A stretch of DNA of 61,677 nucleotides from Thermoplasmata archaeon (GTDB lineage: Archaea > Thermoplasmatota > Thermoplasmata > Lutacidiplasmatales > UBA184), in the NCBI GenBank assembly GCA_021801925.1, contig JAKABH010000004.1, forward strand, positions 1 through 61,677. The letters are read 5' to 3'. The translations under genes were made by a program, and so were the position numbers. The notes under the pieces were generated by a model. It searched no databases. It was not told the DNA's origin and was given only the letters and a program-made list of their open reading frames with translations. Shown here one piece after another: positions 19,938 to 35,110 of this stretch. Each line of letters opens with the position of its first letter. Positions within the stretch are counted from its first letter, which is position 1.

Positions 19938-21067
19938 CCGCCCAGGTGGTCGCCACCGGTTTCGCCCGGTTCGGGCGGCGCCCGGAGCCGCTGGTCGCGC
20001 TTGCGGCCGAGGCGGTCGGCGCGGCGCTCGAGTCGATCGGGCGCCGGCCCATCGACCTGGTCGTGGTCGGGAACATGCTCGGCGGCGCCGTGAACCACGA
20101 GGAGAACCTGGTCTCGCGGATCGCCAACCAGACCGGGCTCGAGACGGCGGCCGGGTTCCGGGTGGAGGCGGCGAGCGCGAGCGGCGCCGCCGCGTTCCAC
20201 GCCGCGACCCTGGCGGTGGAATCGGGGCGGTACGAGCGCGCGCTCGTCGTCGCCGCCGAGAAGATGACCGACCGCCCGACGGCGGAGGTCGCCGCGGCCC
20301 TCGCCGCCTCGCTCCACCCGACGGAACGCGCTGTCGGCGCAACGATGCCGGCGCTCGCGGCGCTGGTGAGCCAGCTCTACGGGGACCGGTACGGGGTCGA
20401 CCCGTCGGCCGCCGATCGGGTCTCGGTCGCCGCCCGCCGCGCGGCGGTCGCCAACCCGTTCGCGCAGTTCCGCACGGCGGTGACGGAGGAGGAGGTCGGG
20501 GCGAGCCGGCCGATTGCGCCGCCCCTCCGGCTCCTGCACTGCTCCGCGATCTCCGACGGCGCCGTCGCGGTCGTCCTCGAACGGGGGAAGGGCCCCGCGA
20601 GCGTCGTGGGCCTGGGGCAGGGGTTCGACGCGATGGCCGTCATCGACCGGGCGGATCTCACCTCCTTCGTCGCGACCCGGACCGCGGCCGAGCGGGCGTT
20701 CCTGGCCGCCGGGCGGAGCCCCCGCGAGGTGCAGGTCGCCGAGCTCCACGATGCGTTCGCCCCGTTCCTCTGGATCGACCTCGAGGACCTGGGGTTCGCG
20801 GAGCCGGGGAGCGCGTGGCGATGGTTCGCCGGGGAGCGCGCGCGCCCGGCCTCCGCGCCCGTCGTGAACCCGTCGGGGGGTCTGATCGGTCGGGGGCACC
20901 CGGTCGGCGCCTCGGGGCTCGCCGCGGTCGCCGAGGTCGCCCGCCAGCTTCGGGGCGAGGCCGGCCCGATCGGGGTTGACCCCCGTCCGACGTTGGGGGT
21001 CGCCCAGTCGATCGGGGGCCTCGCCTCGCACAACTTCGTGACGATCCTGGGGGAGGTGGACCGATGA
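19934..21067 (+). CDS. Archaeal-type thiolase (acetyl-CoA acyltransferase family)
   Basis: LVVVGNMLGGAVNHEENLVSRIANQTGLETAAGFRVEAASASGAAAFHAA...VAELHDAFAPF...NPSGGLIGRGHPVGASGLAAVAEVARQLRGEAG; GTGA overlap with upstream gene. Confidence 0.88.
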   Translation: MTAQVVATGFARFGRRPEPLVALAAEAVGAALESIGRRPIDLVVVGNMLGGAVNHEENLVSRIANQTGLETAAGFRVEAASASGAAAFHAATLAVESGRYERALVVAAEKMTDRPTAEVAAALAASLHPTERAVGATMPALAALVSQLYGDRYGVDPSAADRVSVAARRAAVANPFAQFRTAVTEEEVGASRPIAPPLRLLHCSAISDGAVAVVLERGKGPASVVGLGQGFDAMAVIDRADLTSFVATRTAAERAFLAAGRSPREVQVAELHDAFAPFLWIDLEDLGFAEPGSAWRWFAGERARPASAPVVNPSGGLIGRGHPVGASGLAAVAEVARQLRGEAGPIGVDPRPTLGVAQSIGGLASHNFVTILGEVDR

Positions 21068-21456
21068 CGGCGCCGGAGATCGTGGTGAGCCGCTGTCCGT
21101 CCTGCGCGGCGCGCTACCTCCCGCGGGACGGTCCGTGTCCGAAGTGCGGGGCGACGGCCGCCGAACCGTGCCCGTTGCCGGCCCGAGGGACCGTGCTCGC
21201 CGCCACGGAGCTCGCGAGCCCGGTCGCCGGATGGACGGCACCGCACCCGCTGGTGCTTGTCGAGATGGCCCAGTCGGTGCGGGTCCTGTGCGTAGGCTCC
21301 CGCCCCGCGCCGGCCCCGGGGACGGAGGTCGAGGTCGCCCGGGACGGCGACGGCTACCGCTGCTCGGCCGTCGGCGCCGCGGGGCCGGGGGTACGCGGGG
21401 AGGGGGAGTTTCCGGCGGTCGGCGCGGCCGGCCGTCCTTTTGAACCCCCGAGGTGA
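21064..21456 (+). CDS. DUF35 zinc-ribbon/OB-fold acyl-CoA-associated protein
   Basis: CPSCAARYLPRDGPCPKCGATAAEPCPLPARGTVLAATELASPVAGWTAPHPLVLVEM; ATGA overlap with thiolase. Confidence 0.82.
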   Translation: MTAPEIVVSRCPSCAARYLPRDGPCPKCGATAAEPCPLPARGTVLAATELASPVAGWTAPHPLVLVEMAQSVRVLCVGSRPAPAPGTEVEVARDGDGYRCSAVGAAGPGVRGEGEFPAVGAAGRPFEPPR

Positions 21457-21508
21457 AATCACCACTGGATTAGCAATCCAGCGCCTTGCCGGGCTGGGCC
21501 ATCCCCGC
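21394..21508 (-). tRNA. tRNA-Ser(GCU) with predicted 31-nt intron in T-loop (intron 21408-21438)
   Basis: Minus strand GCGGGGA TG GCC CAGCCCGGCAA GGC G CTGGA TTGCTAA TCCAG T GGTGATTTCACC TC GGGGG TTCAAA [AGGACGGCCGGCCGCGCCGACCGCCGGAAAC] T CCCCC TCCCCGC G; acceptor 7/7 bp, T-stem 5/5 bp, anticodon stem 5/5 bp, class II variable arm, G73. Confidence 0.85.
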
Positions 21509-21530: not shown

Positions 21531-21540
21531 GCTCCTTAAG
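21531..21540 (-). promoter_or_regulatory. Putative TATA-like element for tRNA-Ser
   Basis: cttaag around 21534-21539, about 26-30 nt upstream of the tRNA 5' end. Confidence 0.35.
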
Positions 21541-35037: not shown

Positions 35038-35110
35038 GCCGCCATAGCTCAGTCGGTAGAGCGGCTGATTTGTAATCAGCAGGTCGGGAGTTCGATCCTC
35101 TCTGGCGGCT
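35038..35110 (+). tRNA. tRNA-Thr(UGU), intronless, no encoded CCA
   Basis: GCCGCCA TA GCTC AGTCGGTA GAGC G GCTGA TTTGTAA TCAGC AGGTC GGGAG TTCGATC CTCTC TGGCGGC T; all arms pair. Confidence 0.96.

Follow-up and report, generated by a model that had tools for sequence, protein, structure and literature searches.

Predicted T-loop introns in tRNA genes of Lutacidiplasmatales (Thermoplasmatota), examined from an interrupted tRNA-Ser(GCU) gene

In the 61,677-nt stretch of archaeal DNA analysed here (the window; contig JAKABH010000004.1 of assembly GCA_021801925.1), a tRNA-Ser(GCU) gene lies at positions 21508-21394 of the minus strand, and its T-loop is interrupted by 31 nt at position 59/60. Is this a gene with an intron, a gene in decay, or a tRNA that keeps an enlarged T-arm? 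The host belongs to Candidatus Lutacidiplasmatales (Thermoplasmatota), an order that lives in acidic soils and falls on the euryarchaeal side of the archaea. Sequence, exon and intron limits and stems were found as given in the original prediction (Table 1). Joining the exons yields a class II tRNA-Ser(GCU) with 7 of 7 acceptor pairs, 5 of 5 T-stem pairs and the T-loop TTCAAAT (UUCAAAU in the RNA), and the canonical tRNA restored in this way agrees with intronless orthologues from other families of the class, in which the predicted spliced junction can be read directly (GGGGGTTCAAATCCCCC in locus L025). Judged from its sequence and that of its relatives, the locus very probably holds a functional tRNA-Ser(GCU) gene, present in a single copy, whose T-loop contains a bulge-helix-bulge (BHB) intron at 59/60.

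Table 1. Coordinates of the tRNA-Ser(GCU) locus in the window
Feature	Positions	Strand	Remarks
5' exon, tRNA positions 1-59	21439..21508	-	GCGGGGATGGCCCAGCCCGGCAAGGCGCTGGATTGCTAATCCAGTGGTGATTTCACCTCGGGGGTTCAAA; 100% to predicted 83-nt mature tRNA
Intron, 31 nt, 59/60, predicted BHB type	21408..21438	-	AGGACGGCCGGCCGCGCCGACCGCCGGAAAC; variable length and sequence, conserved pairing with double changes
3' exon	21394..21407	-	21407-21395 = TCCCCCTCCCCGC; U60, T-stem 3' strand, acceptor 3' strand, discriminator G73 (21394); T-stem 5 bp and acceptor 7 bp perfect
BHB central helix, exon half, U54 U55 C56 A57	21441..21444	-	pairs with 21413-21410
BHB central helix, intron half, GGAA	21410..21413	-	A57.G mismatch in this gene
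5' bulge, AA|A	21438..21440	-	predicted cut 21439/21438, from BHB register
3' bulge, AC|U	21407..21409	-	predicted cut 21408/21407, from BHB register
TATA-like TTAA box	21536..21539	-	28-31 nt upstream of mature 5' end

Detection and conservation of the interrupted gene

As had been anticipated, intron-unaware finders missed the gene. ARAGORN and Rfam at its gathering score gave no call at the site, where the Rfam score of 23.7 bits fell short of the cut-off of 29, and their sole call in the window was a tRNA-Thr(UGU) at 35038-35110. A custom scan, which required complementarity of the acceptor, T- and anticodon stems and treated a T-loop insert as optional, found two genes in the window, Ser(GCU) and Thr-UGU, the latter intronless; 40 simulated windows yielded none. 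With a covariance model of the T-arm and intron, whose training alignment includes the site itself, the Ser(GCU) site scored 54.7 bits as the sole match in the window; the best matches in approximately 150 kb of bacterial control DNA reached about 21 bits, barring one bacterium-labelled contig at 36 bits. A chance origin of the interrupted gene was rejected on the basis of conservation, simulation and covariation. In an Rfam tRNA search of the whole genome, 8 of the 12 genes with T-loop introns were likewise absent or below the cut-off. Given that intron-unaware tools miss such genes, tRNA counts in genomes of this kind can be too low.

Being missed by these finders is also what a decayed pseudogene would show, in which the insert broke the gene and AGY codons are read by another tRNA. 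The relatives speak against this. When 24 genus relatives were searched with the spliced tRNA, 21 proved to have the gene; the alignment ends at base 70 in 20 of these, and in G020 bases 25-70 alone are visible, at a contig end. In each of the 21 an insert of about 30 nt follows and then TCCCCCTCCCCGC, so that the CCCCCTCCCCGC half, whose conservation had been named as a check, is present beyond the T-loop insert in 21 of 24 relatives. The orthologues are interrupted at exactly the base corresponding to 21439, their exons are near-identical and their 3' halves identical while the insert diverges, and G73 was seen in every genus relative whose 3' end was inspected. Leader positions -31 to -28 are 86-100% A/T in 21 orthologues (its own included), in leaders that are otherwise GC-rich. 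A second intact tRNA-Ser(GCU) gene was also sought in the assembly, a 94.7% complete MAG, and none was found; the other matches fell on Ser(UGA) and on Leu(CAG), in its 3' part. The codon AGC is common, and of the 2929 codons in five ORFs of the window 61 are AGC or AGT, so that tRNA-Ser(GCU) is needed. A decayed gene thus has next to no probability.

Ser(GCU) genes with the same T-loop break occur in approximately 80 related genomes, and their intron sequence changes fast, with lengths of 29-35 nt in the family. Across the class, the interruption site as judged by eye differs between families, being the T-loop in the window genome's family (f1) and in f3, the anticodon stem in f2, the anticodon loop in G035 and the D-loop in G028, with no interruption elsewhere. 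When genome_contigs was scanned with a pattern, 107 stretches matched. They come mostly from Thermoplasmata records, among them Candidatus Lutacidiplasma silvani AcS3-62, in which the custom finder recognises the same interrupted gene, and the bacterial matches were dismissed as chance pattern matches, save two. One of these (L184), from a record labelled just 'bacterium' (clean3188), carries a Lutacidiplasmatales-type interrupted Ser(GCU) gene, and the label is probably wrong. The other (L122, 4449-4513), on a contig labelled Candidatus Aminicenantes bacterium, is a Ser(GCU) gene whose T-loop holds an insert of 17 nt, and it is the one that scored 36.4 bits with the covariance model; perhaps the contig is a misbinned archaeal one.

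On the opposite strand, a ChsH2-like zinc-ribbon/OB-fold ORF (21064-21456, plus strand), neighbour to a thiolase, extends antisense into the tRNA and across the entire intron, to a TGA stop that lies antisense to the TCA of the T-loop. The neighbouring ORF stops short of the tRNA in some relatives, and the last residues of the ChsH2-like ORF are perhaps unconserved.

Pairing between the intron and the T-loop

The helices were assessed in 32 trimmed intron-bearing T-arms. Double changes were found at every one of the 8 pairs of the inner helix and at 4 of the 5 in the T-stem (12 of 13 in all), the thirteenth pair being invariant, and the covariation score was 0.515 compared with 0.165 in shuffles, none of 500 shuffles scoring as high, and with 0.09-0.17 when the pairing was slid. 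Among 88 unique sequences, inner-helix cells were paired in 87.9%, against 35-55% when slid. Since trimming retained the first 11 and the last 16 intron bases, the register is set by the intron ends. Both the outer and the inner helix are thus supported by covariation, and it is in the register originally proposed (T-stem as outer helix, UUCA/GGAA as centre, 3-nt bulges) that the covariation is seen.

For the central helix we compared 142 T-loop introns from many tRNAs and families, compiled partly by hand. In all 142, intron base -5 is G, which pairs with C56, and bases -4 and -3 are purines, which pair with U55 and U54. Of the 23 genes with G57, 22 have C at base -6, and of the 119 with A57 none has (Fisher p=6e-25, a value that is overstated because related sequences are not independent events); with the Ser(GCU) genes left out, the contrast is still 22 of 23 versus 0 of 37. 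As far as comparative evidence can identify it, the BHB central helix consists of U54-R57 paired with bases -3 to -6 of the intron. Its fourth pair is Watson-Crick in 41 of 142 introns and A.G in 98, including the window gene, in which two 3-nt bulges flank a centre of 3 bp plus the A.G mismatch in place of about 4 bp. The two intronic bases of the 3' bulge vary freely among relatives.

The computed fold of the window gene's pre-tRNA places the intron as a hairpin on a closed T-stem (z=-2.6) and leaves the other arms intact; the central helix was not formed in this fold. Such a stable fold of the unspliced RNA would suit a mature tRNA that retains the insert and has its T-arm extended by the hairpin. 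We nevertheless consider retention very unlikely, given that the covarying pairs occupy U54-R57, which the elbow of a mature tRNA requires, that at least 12 isoacceptors have the insert while insert-free sister genes show an ordinary T-loop, and that the ends of the insert obey BHB rules.

The splicing enzymes

An intron of this type calls for an endonuclease and a ligase, and the genome encodes both. All its PF01974 matches lie in one ORF on contig C12, in which two such matches, arranged as N and C repeats in an alpha'2 layout, are accompanied by a PF02778 match and the motifs GFKYG, AHARYLV and GVRK are kept. The ORF is thus predicted to encode an alpha'2-type EndA, a single chain with a noncatalytic N repeat and a catalytic C repeat carrying Tyr-His-Lys. 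An RtcB ligase gene is located on contig C36. The original prediction had directed attention to epsilon and heterotetrameric enzymes as those that cleave relaxed BHBs; the EndA is neither epsilon2 nor heterotetrameric, and as an alpha'2-type enzyme it is devoid of the Crenarchaea-specific loop. Aligned to the A. fulgidus wild type and the CSL chimera 3p1y, its catalytic repeat shows no CSL/ASL insertion in the interval from YG to LxLSLxE, where its sequence, AYGSPIGHRLELSLLEA, equals that of wild-type A. fulgidus in length, in contrast to the chimera. A CSL/ASL-like loop was therefore rejected as the cause of the intron position. The stretch PRGGxxxKTPSRFW of the N repeat, which A. fulgidus lacks, was rejected as a CSL because its position marks it as a degenerate active-site region and it occurs in most aligned families of the class. 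Before the catalytic Lys, the EndA of the window genome and its genus relatives reads (A/S)G..RVAQGVRK, and most other families of the class have SRAVRLAHGV(R/K)K; these are lineage-specific changes adjoining the active site.

With the insert taken as an intron, the T-stem of the pre-tRNA would serve as the outer helix, the central helix would arise from U54-U55-C56-R57 and intron bases -3 to -6, and what remains of the intron would form the hairpin of the inner helix. The single fused EndA, a predicted alpha'2-type dimer, would then cut between bases 2 and 3 of both 3-nt bulges, and RtcB would ligate the exons to ...GGGGGUUCAAAUCCCCC.... We infer that the gene is transcribed, cut and ligated and that EndA acts alone. 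UUCRA is near-universal in T-loops and one exon half would therefore serve every isoacceptor, which would explain how at least 12 tRNAs are interrupted at an identical position.

Even with a real BHB, cutting in the T-loop might require a further factor beside the loop-less EndA, or a different one in its place. The A. fulgidus and T. acidophilum alpha'2 enzymes have been described as narrow in specificity (PMC6379350), euryarchaea with alpha4/alpha2 enzymes as having introns at the canonical position only (PMC4090602), and non-canonical introns have been tied to CSL/ASL loops (PMC12397907, PMC6379350), a CSL being what this EndA lacks. We regard such a factor as rather improbable, considering that the PF01974 matches of the genome are confined to one ORF, that most introns keep a near-strict motif with a 3-4 bp centre and two 3-nt bulges, and that the EndA homodimer of Ferroplasma cleaves mini-BHB substrates (PMC8707768).

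T-loop introns in the genome and class, and comparison with known systems

A T-loop intron had been expected to be notable in Thermoplasmatota. Its presence stands; as a single oddity it does not, given that at least 12 tRNA genes of the genome carry 59/60 introns and that such introns are common to the family. A model of the T-arm and intron (R1), built partly from 11 genes of the window genome, gave 12 matches there. The 59/60 introns affect Ser-GCU, Ser-GGA, Leu-UAG, Arg-UCU, Arg-UCG, Ala-GGC, Asp-GUC, Asn-GUU, Glu-CUC, Gly-UCC, Gln-CUG and His-GUG. By eye, D-arm introns were seen in Met-CAU and Arg-GCG, and introns adjoining the anticodon in Tyr, Leu-UAA and probably Trp, so that by our own count 17 of the 37 different tRNA genes visible in the genome are interrupted. 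The probable tRNA-Trp (contig C51, 247-325; L200) has an intron of roughly 100 nt beside the anticodon. No tRNA-Lys(UUU) gene was seen in the window genome; in three other genomes, from three genera of f1, this gene has D-loop and T-loop introns (L329 in G018, L330 in G196, L315 in G188).

R1 had 2-13 matches in each of the 62 genomes (seven genera) of f1 and at least one in 126 of the 300 genomes of the class sample, a count that includes single, mostly unchecked weak matches outside f1. The isotype set of T-loop introns is largely common to three genera, and most of these introns are therefore probably older than the genera. In G026, from another family of the same order, T-loop introns measure 13-15 nt, many of them alongside anticodon- or D-loop introns; several are just 13 nt long, the minimum intron length cited being 11 nt (PMC4090602). 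By eye, nine loci of this genome (L250, L255, L263, L265-L270) have two or three introns per tRNA gene, in D-loop, anticodon loop and T-loop.

We found no reports of tRNA introns in Thermoplasmatota in the literature searched, most subscription papers being outside its reach, and these T-loop introns are likely the first described in the phylum. In our reading, the motif stayed near-strict while the position moved, so that no broadened enzyme would be needed. As a tentative idea, to which we give somewhat less than even credence, introns in Lutacidiplasmatales and several other Thermoplasmata families may have spread into the near-universal T-loop target UUCRA|N, perhaps by reverse splicing and recombination, and be processed by a loop-less alpha'2 EndA. 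If so, intron position would be set by the available exon half-site and not by a broadened enzyme, contrary to the model of EndA-loop co-evolution. The predicted intron itself challenges the rule that alpha'2 enzymes accompany canonical introns only. A loop-less alpha'2 EndA beside tRNA genes of which about a third of those found are T-loop-interrupted suggests that intron position is separable from relaxation of the motif, and the window genome offers a clean substrate/enzyme pair for testing.

Introns at 59/60 and other non-canonical BHB introns of tRNA genes are already known from Thermoproteales and other Crenarchaeota (PMC4090602, PMC4033280), and the Ser(GCU) intron joins that kind. Shared with these are the position, the BHB motif, several isotypes per genome and, here in related families, two or three introns in some genes. 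In contrast, the host is a member of the Thermoplasmatota, the non-canonical introns found in it nearly all share a position, 12 being at 59/60 and two in the D-arm, and its EndA is of alpha'2 type without CSL, whereas the crenarchaeal enzyme is (alpha-beta)2 with CSL. The Asgard Atabeyarchaeia and Freyarchaeia also have non-canonical introns in many tRNA genes (PMC11291895), a likeness drawn from tRNA genes alone; they belong to another phylum, and 92-95% of their tRNA genes are concerned compared with 17 of 37 here. Korarchaeum likewise combines an alpha2-type EndA with non-canonical introns (PMC4033280), but its EndA has a CSL-like loop that the window genome's lacks. With the euryarchaeal 37/38 introns of A. 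fulgidus and M. jannaschii, processed by alpha4 or alpha'2 enzymes, the present system has in common the enzyme layout of A. fulgidus and a near-strict BHB, and it differs from them in the position at 59/60 and in the many genes affected per genome.
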